Part shown: in pieces, positions 43,166-53,411 of the stretch
How the letters are laid out: every line of letters begins with the position of its first letter
Position numbering within the stretch: position 1 is the stretch's first letter
Assembly (NCBI GenBank): GCA_008933615.1
Contig: WBUR01000008.1
Coordinates: 1 to 64,000 of the forward strand
Reading direction: 5' to 3'
Source of the DNA: a bacterium
GTDB taxonomy: Bacteria > CLD3 > SB21
Length of the DNA stretch: 64,000 nt
Position numbers and translations under genes: made by a program
The notes under the pieces: generated by a model
Database searches by the model: none
Told to the model about the DNA's origin: nothing
What the model saw: the letters and a program-made list of their open reading frames with translations, nothing else

Positions 43166-44011
43166 TTATTTTTGACTGGGCGATTCGCCGCGGCGATAAT
43201 CAATATTCATTTCTTGGCGGGTCTTATCAATCAATTCCTTAGTTTTCTGTTTTCGTTTAATCACTTTCAGTCGGGATTCAATCTCTAATGATACTTCACT
43301 AAAAGGTTTATAGGTTCCTTTTGGTCGAATTTCGACCACATACCAGAACGAATAATAGCCGTGTCTTGTTAAGATAGGCCCGATGATCTCATCGGTTGCA
43401 TTCTTTAGGAAAACCTGTTTAGCTACCCTATCTTCAAATTTATTACGAGTCTGAAAATCCGTAGCGCCGACGATATCGCTGTCAGCCGCCGCCTGTGAAA
43501 CGAGCTCCATAAAATCTTTTTTCCTAAGGCGAGACATCGCAAGAAATTCAGATGCCATTTTCCTTGACCTTAATTTATCCAAAGTTAGAAAATACTGAAC
43601 TTTGACGTGGTCTTCCGAATAGATAAATGAGTTTCTATTTTGAGCGTAATAATCCTCTGATTCTTTCGGCGTGATCGTCACGCTTTTTTCAATTTCGCTT
43701 TCGATAAACGATTGGATAAGCAATTCACGCCGCACGTTTTCAACCTGGCGTTGATACGAAGGATCCTTATCGTAACCTTCACGAATTGCTTTCTGATAAA
43801 GAGACTCAGAGTTGATCCAGTTTTGAACATAATCTTGCCGGGCTTCATCCTGCAAACGCATGTCCGCCCTGAGCGCACTGTCGACCACTGTTTCAGTCAA
43901 TTCGGCGGTACCGATTTTTACAATAAATTTATTTTCAGGCACGTTGCACGCAATGATAACAAACGCGCTGCCGAAAATGAGTAACAAATATGACGTAATT
44001 TGAAATTTCAT
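43166..44011 (-). CDS. Lipoprotein parvulin/SurA-like chaperone
   Basis: 281-residue lipoprotein (lipobox VIIAC, Cys22). The N-terminal helical SurA_N-like region (TETVVDSALRADMRLQDEARQDYVQNWINSESLY) is followed by a parvulin-type rotamase domain (EDHVKVQYFLTLDKLRSRKMASEFL ... KNATDEIIGPILTRHGYYSFWYVVEIRPKG). Predicted periplasmic folding factor for outer-membrane proteins. It is the third gene of a TerC-parvulin-parvulin run, 16 bases after the longer paralogue. Confidence 0.78.
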   Translation of the reverse strand: MKFQITSYLLLIFGSAFVIIACNVPENKFIVKIGTAELTETVVDSALRADMRLQDEARQDYVQNWINSESLYQKAIREGYDKDPSYQRQVENVRRELLIQSFIESEIEKSVTITPKESEDYYAQNRNSFIYSEDHVKVQYFLTLDKLRSRKMASEFLAMSRLRKKDFMELVSQAAADSDIVGATDFQTRNKFEDRVAKQVFLKNATDEIIGPILTRHGYYSFWYVVEIRPKGTYKPFSEVSLEIESRLKVIKRKQKTKELIDKTRQEMNIDYRRGESPSQK

Positions 44012-44027
44012 GACTTAATCAAAATCC

Positions 44028-45722
44028 TTACAGATTATTTTCATATATAACGACTTTCCAACGCTTTTTTAGATTTCTTAGTAATTCTTTTTCGCTCTTT
44101 TTTATTTCATTATTCCTATAGTCGTTTTTCATGATATTCTTTACCGTTTCGTAATTTAGCAACTCGGGCTCGATTTTGCTTTCAATTTTGATAATGGAAA
44201 AGCCACCGGATTTTCTGGAAACTATTTTACTCACGTCATTTTTTCCCATCCGTAATGCAACATGGACGAGTTCGTTTTTTTCTGTATACTTTGATGAATT
44301 ATTCGGAATAAATTTTACACTGTTATCATTGTTTTTTGCGTTAATTATCTCCGGAATTTTCGCAAGATCGACCCCGGATTGAATGACTCGTTCTGCTGCA
44401 TTTATCAGTTCTAATGTTGGAGAATAAATTTCTGACCATCCAATCACACCCTCCGTCTGATATTTTAACCGGTTCCTTGAATAGTAAGCATAGATCTCCG
44501 AATCCGATGGACTACTAATAATAAATGCCAATTCATCGGAAACACGCTTGATCACCCGCTTTTTCTTAGATTCCGTTAATTCAGCCCGAAAAGCTTCTGA
44601 CTCCATAAATCCGTCCTGTACGCTTAAATCCGCAAGCAAAAAAGATTTGCAGTAATCTTTGACTAATCGTTGTATTATTTGATAATTCGGTGATGGAATT
44701 TGATCAGGAGAATAGTTGCGTATGAAATCTCGAAACGACACACTTTGTGTCCCTAAGATAGCAATCGGCCTTTCGAGATATTCTTCAGTCAACCCAAATG
44801 CTCCTGACTGCGCTTTGGCGGTATCCAGTAGTACGTCCAAAAGTATCTGAATATTCTCGTCAACTATCTTTACGCCTGCAGATTTATATAGTGAATCCAG
44901 GAACGCGTTTTGGAAGCGAATAAGCGTAGCATAATCATCTCCCTGCAATCGTGATTTTATCAATTCTTTCGCTTGGGCGATATCAATCGGTTTTTTTAAT
45001 GAATCATCAAAAGCGATCACGCGACAAATGACATATGCCCCTTGAATTTCAATTGGCTTTGAAACTGAATTGGGCCGCATTTTGATTACTTCTCTTTCAT
45101 ACAATACCGGAATCTGGCCGATTTGCATTTTCTCGTGTGCAATATTGACCTTTTTGGAGTATGGATTCAAATAGTAATCAGAATTTTTTTCGGCAAGCTC
45201 TTCAAAATTATTCTTATTGATCAAAATATAAATAGAATCTGCTTTTCGTTTTGCTTGTTCGATGGTTAGTTTGGCAAGCGATCCTTTACGATCTTTAAAT
45301 CGGATCACTATATTTTGAACGCGAATGGTTACGCCAAAATAATCCATGTAAGCTTTGACATAGTCTTCAGTAACAAAGTTTCCAAATATATATTTTTCGT
45401 AGGCATTTCGATACAGTATGTTCTTTATATCTTTTTCTTCGTTCCATGATGTATCTTTATCAAATCCTTTCTCTATCCCATACGCCAATTTGAGCCTGTC
45501 ATTAATAATCAAATCCAAATATTCTCTCTTTTCAGAAAAAGCCAGCTTTGAAGCGTTTTGTCCGAATTTCTTTTCAAGAAAAATATTGAAGTCGTTTACT
45601 GTAATTGCTTCTTTCCCATCGATCGTAGCTAAAACATGATCGTTGCTTTTTTGACAACCGATAATAAAAAAAATACCGGCAATGACAAGCGACCGTACAC
45701 TTGCACTAATGCGCTTTAACAT
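44028..45722 (-). CDS. Large lipoprotein peptidyl-prolyl isomerase-like protein
   Basis: 564-residue lipoprotein (lipobox FIIGC, Cys23). Residues about 30-125 are SurA_N-like, about 128-245 form a parvulin-type domain (VRVQNIVIRFKDRKG ... EKMQIGQIPVLYEREVIKMRPNSVSKPIEIQGAYVICRVIAF), and a second, more divergent parvulin-like segment lies near the C-terminus (EGVIGWSEIYSPT ... KNDVSKIVSRKSGGFSIIKIESK). Probably a periplasmic chaperone for outer-membrane protein folding. Composition is AT-rich and Lys/Ile-rich relative to its neighbours. Starts 2 bases after the TerC gene. Confidence 0.78.
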   Translation of the reverse strand: MLKRISASVRSLVIAGIFFIIGCQKSNDHVLATIDGKEAITVNDFNIFLEKKFGQNASKLAFSEKREYLDLIINDRLKLAYGIEKGFDKDTSWNEEKDIKNILYRNAYEKYIFGNFVTEDYVKAYMDYFGVTIRVQNIVIRFKDRKGSLAKLTIEQAKRKADSIYILINKNNFEELAEKNSDYYLNPYSKKVNIAHEKMQIGQIPVLYEREVIKMRPNSVSKPIEIQGAYVICRVIAFDDSLKKPIDIAQAKELIKSRLQGDDYATLIRFQNAFLDSLYKSAGVKIVDENIQILLDVLLDTAKAQSGAFGLTEEYLERPIAILGTQSVSFRDFIRNYSPDQIPSPNYQIIQRLVKDYCKSFLLADLSVQDGFMESEAFRAELTESKKKRVIKRVSDELAFIISSPSDSEIYAYYSRNRLKYQTEGVIGWSEIYSPTLELINAAERVIQSGVDLAKIPEIINAKNNDNSVKFIPNNSSKYTEKNELVHVALRMGKNDVSKIVSRKSGGFSIIKIESKIEPELLNYETVKNIMKNDYRNNEIKKSEKELLRNLKKRWKVVIYENNL

Positions 45723-50466: not shown

Positions 50467-51762
50467 CTAATGAGCAGCCTTTTTCGATAATCGCTCCGTT
50501 ACTTTATCCGCGATCTTATCACGAACAGACCGGCTTGAAATTTCTTCATTTGAAAAATTCAATGTTCGTGTCAAAATAGTCGTGCTCACATTTTGTTTGC
50601 TGAGCATCGACATAACTGCATACCCTTGTTGGCTGGATGACGAGATGTTGGAAACGGCATTCAAAAACGCAAAGAGAACTTGGTCATCCGAAGGACATAC
50701 CGCCGCAACTTCTTCCAGAACATCACCCTGAACGGAACTGGATGAGATATGTTCAATGCTTTTTAGGATTTTGATGAATGCAGAGCTGCTCATGTCCTTT
50801 TTTCTTAATAATGCCTTTAAAGCGGCGCCTTGTTCGGATGATGAACTTATCCATTTAACGACATCTACGTAAGCTTCGACAACCTTGTCGTTAGCCGAAC
50901 TTTTTTGCGCAAGGGATTGAAGCACAGAACTTTGTGCGGAACTTGACGAAATATGCTTAATAACCTTAGCCATCGCCTCGGCCGATTCATCGTTGATCAC
51001 ACGTAATTCCGTGAGCTGAATTAAGACTTCGCTTTGTTTTGAACTGGACGAAATTTCTTTCGTAGCGCGGATTAAGGATTCTGTCAAAACGCTGTCTTCT
51101 TGGAATTTTCCGGCTGAGGATATCAAAATATCGCCTAATTTTGAACTGCTGGATATTTCATTGGCAACGGTCTCGACTGCTTTTTCAAGCTCTTGCGAAC
51201 TGAGATCGGGATGATTCAATATCGCTTCAAAGTAGATTTTTTTTGCATAGTTGCTATTCACCCAACGGATCTCACGGATGGCCGCCTGTGCCCCTTGTTC
51301 TGCGAGAATTTTCTTAATTCGCCCTTGCGCGCCGAGCCCCGTTTCACGAGCTACGTCCTGCAAAATCAACGACAGCCATGCCTGAGCGTCCGAATCAAAT
51401 TCGTAATCACGTCCTTGTATGGTGTACTTTTTTTCAATTTTTCCGTCGGCTGCTGCAGTCAATGTGATTGAGCGATACGTAAGCCAATCCCGTTCTTTAA
51501 TCACGATAAATCCGTCGGGCGAAATACTTTTTATGTCCAGATCGTTTGGTGTCATTTCTACCACTCCGCCCGATCTCACCTCCAGGCTTTTTAGCAGCGT
51601 ATTGGAATAATAGTCAATACCGCCGTTTTCGGTCGAACTATTTTGAAAGCCGATGAGTATGCCGCGGCCTTTTCTGTCATCCTGAATCCCGGCATGGCCA
51701 TTCCACGATACCTCCGCAGTAATATTTAACAGCGTGGCGCAGATGATTGTCAAATAAAACAT
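50467..51762 (-). CDS. Exported solenoid protein with 34-residue ISSSS repeats
   Basis: 431 residues, signal peptide 1-17. Residues 18-160 form an N-terminal domain of beta texture (GGVVEMTPNDLDIKSISPDGFIVIKE ... KKYTIQGRDYEFDSDAQAWLSLILQDV). From residue 169 a helical repeat begins: ISSSS occurs at residues 203, 237, 271, 305, 339 and 373 and degenerate ISSRS at 408, a period of 34 (35 for the last). Each unit has the pattern ISSSSxQxxVLxxL. Similar 'I-S-S-D-Y-E' repeats accompany M56 peptidases in other phyla (from memory), but no protease motif is present here. Probably periplasmic. It is 28 bases after the DUF6249 gene and opposite an ECF sigma factor. Confidence 0.75.
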   Translation of the reverse strand: MFYLTIICATLLNITAEVSWNGHAGIQDDRKGRGILIGFQNSSTENGGIDYYSNTLLKSLEVRSGGVVEMTPNDLDIKSISPDGFIVIKERDWLTYRSITLTAAADGKIEKKYTIQGRDYEFDSDAQAWLSLILQDVARETGLGAQGRIKKILAEQGAQAAIREIRWVNSNYAKKIYFEAILNHPDLSSQELEKAVETVANEISSSSKLGDILISSAGKFQEDSVLTESLIRATKEISSSSKQSEVLIQLTELRVINDESAEAMAKVIKHISSSSAQSSVLQSLAQKSSANDKVVEAYVDVVKWISSSSEQGAALKALLRKKDMSSSAFIKILKSIEHISSSSVQGDVLEEVAAVCPSDDQVLFAFLNAVSNISSSSQQGYAVMSMLSKQNVSTTILTRTLNFSNEEISSRSVRDKIADKVTERLSKKAAH

Positions 51763-51790: not shown

Positions 51791-52129
51791 TTATTCCGCG
51801 CTCTTTTGACTTTTGGCAATAAAATAGTATACGATAAATGCCAAGCCGGCCAATATGGCGACAAACCCAAACGAAGCGGGCCCTTCCATAAGTAAAGGAA
51901 ACATAGAATTGATAAATAGCGCGATACCGATTGCGATCAACACAATACCCCATTTAAGCGATGGCATCGGCTGCATTTCCGTATTCTTCACAAAAAGATA
52001 TTTGGCGTTTTCGTCTACGACGCCTTTATCAATCAATTTTTGCCGTAATCGGTTATCGCTGAGCGTTTTGATGGTTAAATAGATAATGTAAAATAAGAAA
52101 ATCGGGATAAGAAATTCCATGTTGTTCAT
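51791..52129 (-). CDS. DUF6249-like small membrane protein
   Basis: 112 residues with three hydrophobic segments (about residues 4-22, 60-76, 84-104) and a cytoplasmic-looking middle (DNRLRQKLIDKGVVDENAKYLF). The layout and the LRQKLIDKG motif match the DUF6249 family, whose function is unknown but which often sits beside ECF sigma factors (from memory). RBS AAGGAGAA lies 7 bases before the first ATG. Divergent from the sigma factor, and probably co-transcribed with the ISSSS repeat gene. Confidence 0.75.
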   Translation of the reverse strand: MNNMEFLIPIFLFYIIYLTIKTLSDNRLRQKLIDKGVVDENAKYLFVKNTEMQPMPSLKWGIVLIAIGIALFINSMFPLLMEGPASFGFVAILAGLAFIVYYFIAKSQKSAE

Positions 52130-52241
52130 GACGGTTCTCCTTACTTAAGTTGCGTGTTATTTGAATAGACAGATTAAATTATCAATAGTTGCAAAGTGAT
52201 CGTTCATTACGACCTTAAATGAATAGACCGGTCAACCGGGA

Positions 52242-52283
52242 AAATGTTGCACTTGCAAGTTAACAATAATTTTTGCAACATTT
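52242..52283. promoter_or_regulatory. Inverted repeat in the sigma-factor/DUF6249 divergent region
   Basis: Perfect 10-bp arms, AAATGTTGCA at 52242-52251 and TGCAACATTT at 52274-52283, separated by 22 bases. It lies 41 bases upstream of the sigma-factor start and between the two divergent genes, a natural place for a shared operator or autoregulated promoters. Confidence 0.45.
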
Positions 52284-52323
52284 GTCAAAAGCCCATGTCT
52301 AACTCAACATAGGAAAAGGAGAC

Positions 52324-52917
52324 ATGGAAGATCGCGCCATCGTTCATAAAATATTATCCGGCGACCTAAATGCTTTTGAAACAATAGTTAATAGCAATCA
52401 AAAGCTGGTGGCGCATGTGGTTTTCAAGATGGTACGCCAGGCGGCCGATCGTGAAGAAGTTTGTCAGGATGTGTTTATTAAAGTGTATGAAAATCTAAAA
52501 TCGTTTCAATTCAACTCAAAGTTGTCCACTTGGATTGCACGTATCGCTTATAATTCCTGTCTCAATTATTTACAAAAGAAAAAACTGCCCTTGTATAATG
52601 ATGTGCCGACAACTTATGACGAAAACGAACCCATCTCCGCCGGTTTTTCAGAAAATATCTGGGGCAGTTCGCCCGGGCCGGAAGACGCGCTGATGCGGAG
52701 GCAAGTTTCGGAATACTTAAAGACAGAGATTGGACAGTTGCCGGTGCAATACCGAACGATCATAACGCTCTATCATCTGGATGAAATGAGTTATCAGGAA
52801 ATCGGGCAGGTTTTAAATTTGCCCGAAGGTACTGTCAAGAGTTACCTGTTCCGTGCGCGAAAAATGCTGAAAGATAAATTACTTGCAAAGTATCAGGAAG
52901 AGGAATTAATATCATGA
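52324..52917 (+). CDS. ECF-type RNA polymerase sigma factor
   Basis: 197-residue sigma-70 family factor. Region 2 (about residues 10-80) includes DREEVCQDVFIKVYENLKSF and SKLSTWIARIAYNSCLNYLQKKK; region 4 (about 125-185) includes LPVQYRTIITLYHLDEMSYQEIGQVLNLPEGTVKSYLFRARKMLK, the helix-turn-helix that reads the -35 element. No region 1 or 3, as expected for ECF factors. The ATG follows AAAAGGAG. It overlaps the anti-sigma gene by ATGA, so the pair is translationally coupled. Confidence 0.94.
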   Translation: MEDRAIVHKILSGDLNAFETIVNSNQKLVAHVVFKMVRQAADREEVCQDVFIKVYENLKSFQFNSKLSTWIARIAYNSCLNYLQKKKLPLYNDVPTTYDENEPISAGFSENIWGSSPGPEDALMRRQVSEYLKTEIGQLPVQYRTIITLYHLDEMSYQEIGQVLNLPEGTVKSYLFRARKMLKDKLLAKYQEEELIS

Positions 52918-53411
52918 ACCACTTAACGGATGTCGAAATACAGTCCCTTGCGGACCAAGCGTCTGATAACCCGGAGATTCAATCTCATCTTGAATCGTGC
53001 CCGATGTGTCGATCACACGTTTTTGCTTACCGTCAACTTTTTTCAGCATTGAAAAAAGACGACGGGGCCGCATTGCCGAATACTTTTGCCCGCATGGTTT
53101 TATCGCGAATTGAAGAAAAACAAGAACAGAAAGCCGTTTGGCGTGATTGGATATTGATAGGCATCGCCGGAATTATGGGCGTCGCGATTTCAATATACTA
53201 TACCGGCTCATCGCTGACCGGGGACGTCGTTACGGATTCTGTAAAAAACCTACTGAACTCCCGCGAGTCGGTCGCGTCATCATTCCGTCAGGTTCAAAAC
53301 TGGTTTGGCGGCGGTTTATCCTACTTGATCTATGGCGCACTCCTGCTTTTGATTTTCAATTGGCTCGACGAGAAATTGATTAAGTCCAAGAAATTTTCCG
53401 GTCAACATTAG
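52914..53411 (+). CDS. Membrane-anchored zinc-finger anti-sigma factor
   Basis: 165 residues. The N-terminal HLESCPMCRSHV is a HxxxCxxC zinc-finger (ZAS-type) motif that would hold the ECF factor inactive in the cytoplasm. Hydrophobic segments at about residues 77-100 (DWILIGIAGIMGVAISIYYTG) and 137-153 (LSYLIYGALLLLIFNWL) anchor it in the membrane with a short loop outside. Start overlaps the sigma-factor stop. The small external loop suggests release by proteolysis or by partner binding, not a large sensor domain; this is inference. Confidence 0.8.
   Translation: MNHLTDVEIQSLADQASDNPEIQSHLESCPMCRSHVFAYRQLFSALKKDDGAALPNTFARMVLSRIEEKQEQKAVWRDWILIGIAGIMGVAISIYYTGSSLTGDVVTDSVKNLLNSRESVASSFRQVQNWFGGGLSYLIYGALLLLIFNWLDEKLIKSKKFSGQH

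Follow-up and report, generated by a model that had tools for sequence, protein, structure and literature searches.

A free-standing M56-type ectodomain encoded beside a putative ECF sigma-factor switch

The closest described systems to the protein considered here are the BlaR1/MecR1-type M56 peptidases and their BlaI partners (PF05569/PF03965). BlaR1 senses beta-lactams through acylation of its sensor domain (PMC9834060), and BlaR1 signalling serves here as an analogy for a sensor ectodomain (PMC9834060). An uncharacterised subset of these peptidases (L011, L012, L013 and L014 among them) has an ectodomain that is homologous to our protein and has the same 34-residue unit. To our knowledge, most non-classical BlaR1-like proteins, like many ECF systems, respond to signals that have yet to be identified. 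A second point of comparison is the ECF/anti-sigma/DUF6249 locus found elsewhere in bacteria, where an ECF homologue lies near DUF6249 in 18 of the 24 loci outside the family of the organism studied. These loci share that arrangement with ours but contain no solenoid gene. A third comparison is with DUF4476 (PF14771) and the generic HEAT/TPR-type solenoids, which are likewise made of two-helix repeats.

The protein is encoded on the minus strand at 50467..51762 of the window, by which we mean the whole 64,000-nucleotide stretch of bacterial DNA that was analysed. The gene has 431 codons and an ATG start, with AAGGAG 7 bases upstream of the ATG; it encodes a free-standing ectodomain of 431 aa, a beta domain followed by an alpha-alpha solenoid. 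A probable signal peptide covers residues 1 to about 24 (51691..51762, minus strand). The N-terminus is hydrophobic in all orthologues, most clearly in L007; that of the window copy lacks the usual positive charge, and no 19-residue segment exceeded the hydropathy threshold. The protein is presumably exported to the periplasm. The N-terminal beta domain, residues about 36-124 (51391..51657, minus strand), is conserved with M56 ectodomains and is poorly modelled by AlphaFold2 (AF2; pLDDT below 50), though strands are present. The solenoid, with a unit length of 34, occupies residues 145-429 (50476..51330, minus strand). Unlike BlaR1-type proteins, the window protein has no M56 domain, no adjoining BlaI gene and, apparently, an ECF sigma factor as its output; no acylated beta-lactam sensor domain of the known BlaR1 kind was found, and no transpeptidase (penicillin-binding) domain was matched by Pfam in it or in 37 ectodomains.

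Homology to the ectodomains of M56 peptidases

Orthologues were found in two public MAGs (94% and 84% identical) and in two further genera of the same family (47% and 42% identical). A profile built from them gave distant matches in genomes of other phyla. Four of the matched proteins carry a BlaR1-type M56 peptidase domain, and in these it is the ectodomain that the profile matches. The matches to L011 (E 1e-51, profile positions 32-381) and L012 (E 2e-30, positions 57-383) cover both the beta domain and the repeats, as the alignments confirm. By these profile matches and alignments, the window protein is homologous over its full mature length to the ectodomain of BlaR1-type M56 peptidases of other phyla. 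The original prediction, made from the sequence of the window, had pointed to related ISSDYE repeats in M56 sensor peptidases of other phyla and had proposed a profile search. The profile search bears the link out, with the same 34-residue period, and extends the relationship across the beta domain as well as the repeats. The prediction had also described the protein as having no peptidase, only an N-terminal beta domain. A Pfam search of the window protein found no PF05569 match, and the beta domain is itself shared with M56 ectodomains. Elsewhere in the window's genome (G000), no M56 match rises above the cut-off; two weak, partial matches fall below it. The window protein, without a peptidase and with no BlaI beside its gene, is not a member of the M56 family.

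How common is this ectodomain? No Pfam family matches the window protein or defines the combination of beta domain and solenoid, sequence searches of Pfam, NCBIfam and PDB with the window protein returned nothing significant, and a literature search found no description of such an ectodomain. It is rare in a broad sample of 386 genomes, which yielded ten matches, five of them in the window's family. Among the 298 genomes sampled around G209, a second profile detected it in 44, for the most part fused to M56. As is usual at the M56 loci inspected, a BlaI gene (PF03965) lies directly upstream of the M56-ectodomain gene in G068, G209, G320 and G382, and a BlaI-type match to a locally built profile precedes it in G321 and G518. 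In three of these genomes (G320, G321 and G518), a second, free-standing ectodomain gene lies directly downstream of the blaI-M56 pair. The proteins encoded in these operons have the domain order of the window protein, a similar length and no M56 domain, and several have the same kind of hydrophobic N-terminus. Unlike the window protein, they mostly carry SD-type or other motifs rather than SSSS, and they fall in a separate group of a tree whose root is undefined. This separation is consistent with two separate origins of free-standing ectodomains. The beta domain is also found behind M56 without repeats in some proteins, so, judged by domain arrangement, it is a module of its own. Other arrangements were seen as well. 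One M56 protein (L145:2302-4951) has the reverse order, with repeats before the beta domain, and a free-standing beta domain of 169 aa comes after it. In two genomes the gene immediately downstream of an ectodomain gene encodes a DUF5916 protein: at L093:3015-5618 it follows an M56-ectodomain gene, and at L091:2621-5230 a free-standing one.

A conserved operon and candidate ECF-type promoters

The solenoid gene follows a gene for a DUF6249 membrane protein (51791..52129, minus strand; PF19762, E 9e-16; three hydrophobic segments by hydropathy), the first gene of the operon, after a gap of 28 bp. Divergent from this operon are genes for an ECF sigma factor (52324..52917, plus strand; Sigma70_r2 and r4_2; TIGR02937, E 2e-33) and an anti-sigma factor (52914..53411, plus strand) that has an HxxxCxxC motif, two hydrophobic segments and a match to NF052375 with an E value of 1e-6, below the cut-off of that model. 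The gene downstream of the solenoid gene encodes a DUF5686 protein, by Pfam. With DUF6249, the ECF factor and the anti-sigma factor, it makes up the set of neighbours, and none of these adjacent genes encodes BlaI. DUF6249 lies upstream of the solenoid gene in all five genomes with an orthologue; the DUF6249 gene of G005 sits at a contig end. The tabulation of ECF, DUF6249 and M56 partners that the original prediction had asked for gives DUF6249 at all five orthologue loci and M56/BlaI at loci of distant homologues. Conservation bears out the proposed pairing with DUF6249 and an ECF/anti-sigma switch, and the gene is linked to the ECF factor by promoter-like sites that both share. Because DUF6249-ECF loci outside the family do without the solenoid, it appears to be a later addition to an older ECF-DUF6249 module, and it is not essential to that module. 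A literature search on DUF6249 gave nothing relevant. Variants of the neighbourhood include two tandem DUF6249 genes divergent from an ECF/anti-sigma pair in another phylum (L045:339-1007). In a sister species, the solenoid gene is separated from a 795-aa gene, which holds the position of the window's DUF5686 gene, by genes for an ABC ATPase and for a fusion of an ABC-2 permease with an M1 peptidase (L002:11302-15841). Further away, at 43166-45722 of the window, a TerC-family gene has beside it a pair of adjacent genes for PPIC-type peptidyl-prolyl isomerases.

The region between the divergent transcription units contains three candidate sites. First, a candidate ECF-type promoter for the sigma/anti-sigma pair, TGCAACATTT-N13-GTCTAA, lies at 52274..52302 on the plus strand; it is an exact match and is conserved in six genomes. 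Second, a divergent candidate for the DUF6249-solenoid operon, TGCAAC-N17-GTCTA, lies at 52223..52251 on the minus strand, and its core is conserved in the same number of genomes. Third, a weaker site with the direction of the DUF6249-solenoid promoter, found only in the window's genus, lies at 52165..52193 on the minus strand. Across the six genomes, the two TGCAAC-N17-GTC sites that face away from each other are conserved and most other intergenic sequence has diverged. The exact pattern TGCAAC-N16-18-GTCTA occurs three times in G000, always in the divergent intergenic region, against six occurrences genome-wide of a reversed control pattern; the weight therefore lies on the clustering and conservation of the sites and not on their number. 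With one mismatch to a longer pattern there are seven sites in G000 and two in the reversed control. A broad regulon scan with two mismatches was rejected as noise, with 26 sites against 33 in the control. In four genomes an ECF-type site also precedes a TolC-MacA-MacB operon, whose genes were checked by Pfam in G000, and in three genomes one precedes an Omp85/DUF5686 gene; a wider regulon beyond these genes is uncertain. Conservation of the divergent sites implies that the ECF factor would drive its own genes and the DUF6249-solenoid operon, a link between sigma factor and promoter that is read as a footprint in the DNA sequence. Sites of this type were also seen close upstream of, or at the frame start of, Beta-lactamase-family (PF00144) serine hydrolase genes in G002, G001 and G003 (L117, L120 and L122, respectively), and an M1 peptidase gene in G004 (L112) has such a site of its own. 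In the window's own genome, none of these sites was seen in front of a PF00144 gene.

There are two main ways to read a gene with this ancestry and this putative control. We lean towards a periplasmic protein, a detached M56-type ectodomain, that the ECF factor would induce during envelope stress and that would serve the response as a receptor or in feedback, with a putative ligand and direction of signalling. The other reading, possible rather than probable, is that the protein is an induced effector only: it would bind other molecules in the periplasm as a scaffold or in a chaperone-like way, and so repair or shield the envelope, with no signalling feedback. The gene lies downstream of an ECF-type promoter and not beside the anti-sigma gene, as such an effector might; its downstream neighbour encodes a DUF5686 protein, and another DUF5686/Omp85 gene carries an ECF-type site. 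Solenoids commonly bind proteins, which also fits a scaffold. Against this reading, the same ectodomain makes up the outer portion of M56 proteins, in which sensing is the natural expectation.

The solenoid and its serine motif

AF2 was run on the window protein and two orthologues. It models residues 145-429 with high confidence as a regular solenoid of two-helix repeats; the solenoid modelled alone (residues 143-431) has a mean pLDDT of 92.3 and a pTM of 0.85. The helical solenoid that had been predicted from the repeats, to be checked by AlphaFold and a fold search, is thus regular in the model at a pLDDT of about 92, and the PDB folds that it matches are generic superhelices. These matches are weak, with TMq at most 0.46. 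DUF4476 proteins were among the top hits in a viral-library fold search (TMt about 0.45-0.54 within the top six), which prompted a test of DUF4476 membership; this candidate was dropped, with no PF14771 match in the window protein, in 37 members of the family or anywhere in G000. There was likewise no Pfam match to a HEAT, TPR or Sel1 repeat in the window protein or the 37 members. The family thus shares two-helix repeats with DUF4476 and HEAT/TPR solenoids but neither Pfam matches nor more than weak PDB fold matches place it among them.

The ISSSS motif occurs on the translated minus-strand frame where it had been reported, at residues 203-207 (51142..51156), 237-241 (51040..51054), 271-275 (50938..50952), 305-309 (50836..50850), 339-343 (50734..50748) and 373-377 (50632..50646), with a degenerate ISSRS copy at residues 408-412 (50527..50541); the spacing is 34 five times and then 35. 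At least two copies of ISSSS arose in 3 of 20,000 shuffles of the window protein, against six in the real one. Identity among the six units is 100% over the ISSSS positions and averages 18% over the remaining 29. The motif serines are encoded by both TCN and AGY codons, which switch between repeats and between orthologues, and this switching argues for selection at the amino-acid level on old repeats. By these measures, the repetition is old and selected; recent tandem duplication is ruled out by the low identity between units and the mixed serine codons.

What is the motif for? The original prediction took the serines to form a load-bearing or ligand-binding ridge and looked for their conservation in homologues. 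ISSSS is indeed kept in all orthologues, including those only 40-47% identical, but more distant relatives share the serine at position 3 and mostly not SSSS. A consensus built from 276 repeat units, whose spacing is 34 in 169 of the cases and 35 in another 34, has I/L/M/V at position 1 and Leu at position 11. All window-family units (100%) have Ser at position 3, as do 90% of the units from elsewhere. At position 4 the window family has Ser where 90% of the other units have Asp, and at position 5 it has Ser in place of Tyr, Gly or Phe. The family-wide motif is therefore I-x-S-D-[YFG]-[ED], of which ISSSS is a variant with Ser at the Asp and aromatic/Gly positions. In the AF2 model, helix A starts at residues 206, 240, 274, 308, 342, 376 and 411; in every repeat the residue directly before this start is the invariant position-3 Ser. 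The residue just before a helix is the standard N-cap place, and the S-D-Y-E of the relatives resembles a capping box under helix-capping rules. Because helix A always begins one residue later, the position-3 Ser of each repeat is most simply read, in the model, as mainly its N-cap, and the conservation can be explained without invoking a special binding surface. The ridge as originally stated is not upheld: only the capping serine is family-wide. A narrower version, in which the aligned helix N-termini and exposed hydroxyls of the serine edge bind an anion or a glycan, seems unlikely. The motif does precede all the helix A N-termini, every window-family repeat has four serines and the M56 protein L011 carries the same SSSS form, but most homologues have Asp and then Tyr, Phe or Gly at the fourth and fifth motif positions, and capping is the simpler explanation.

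A putative detached sensor module

That the protein is a decayed M56 sensor, a non-functional remnant left alone in a genome with no M56 match above the cut-off, is very improbable given intact frames in all five genomes, a motif conserved through switches of codon class, and a conserved operon with conserved promoter-like sites. The preferred reading, an ECF-induced receptor or feedback protein, starts from computed results: the solenoid fold, the homology to M56 ectodomains, the conserved gene order and the conserved divergent promoter-like sites. Its remaining elements would be export, recognition of the promoters by the sigma factor, a ligand, a partner, and feedback that may be positive or negative and may run through DUF6249. 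In the proposed sequence of events, envelope stress would cause the anti-sigma factor to release the ECF sigma factor. The freed sigma factor would then raise expression of its own operon and of the DUF6249-solenoid operon, along with genes for envelope export and the outer membrane such as those of TolC-MacA-MacB. The solenoid protein would act as a periplasmic ligand-binding or feedback component, probably together with DUF6249 at the membrane. Its receptor-like solenoid would have been borrowed from, or be shared with, the M56 sensor family. A further, tentative suggestion is that one receptor module serves two unrelated outputs: fused to M56 in some phyla, it would act through M56/BlaI proteolysis, and released, in the window's lineage, it would act in trans via DUF6249 on the ECF switch, with the released ectodomain as the actual stress sensor.

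What are the implications of these observations? First, if the last suggestion is true, one extracytoplasmic module, the beta domain with its SDYE/SSSS solenoid, has come to feed into two signalling systems that are unrelated to each other. Second, DUF6249 gains a context: the gene for this membrane protein usually has an ECF sigma-factor gene as a neighbour. Third, a small and probably soluble stand-alone ectodomain is a convenient starting point for finding ligands and for determining a structure. Fourth, a sensor-type module without a Pfam family, frequent in two well-sampled bacterial families, is seen here detached from its protease, under putative ECF control.
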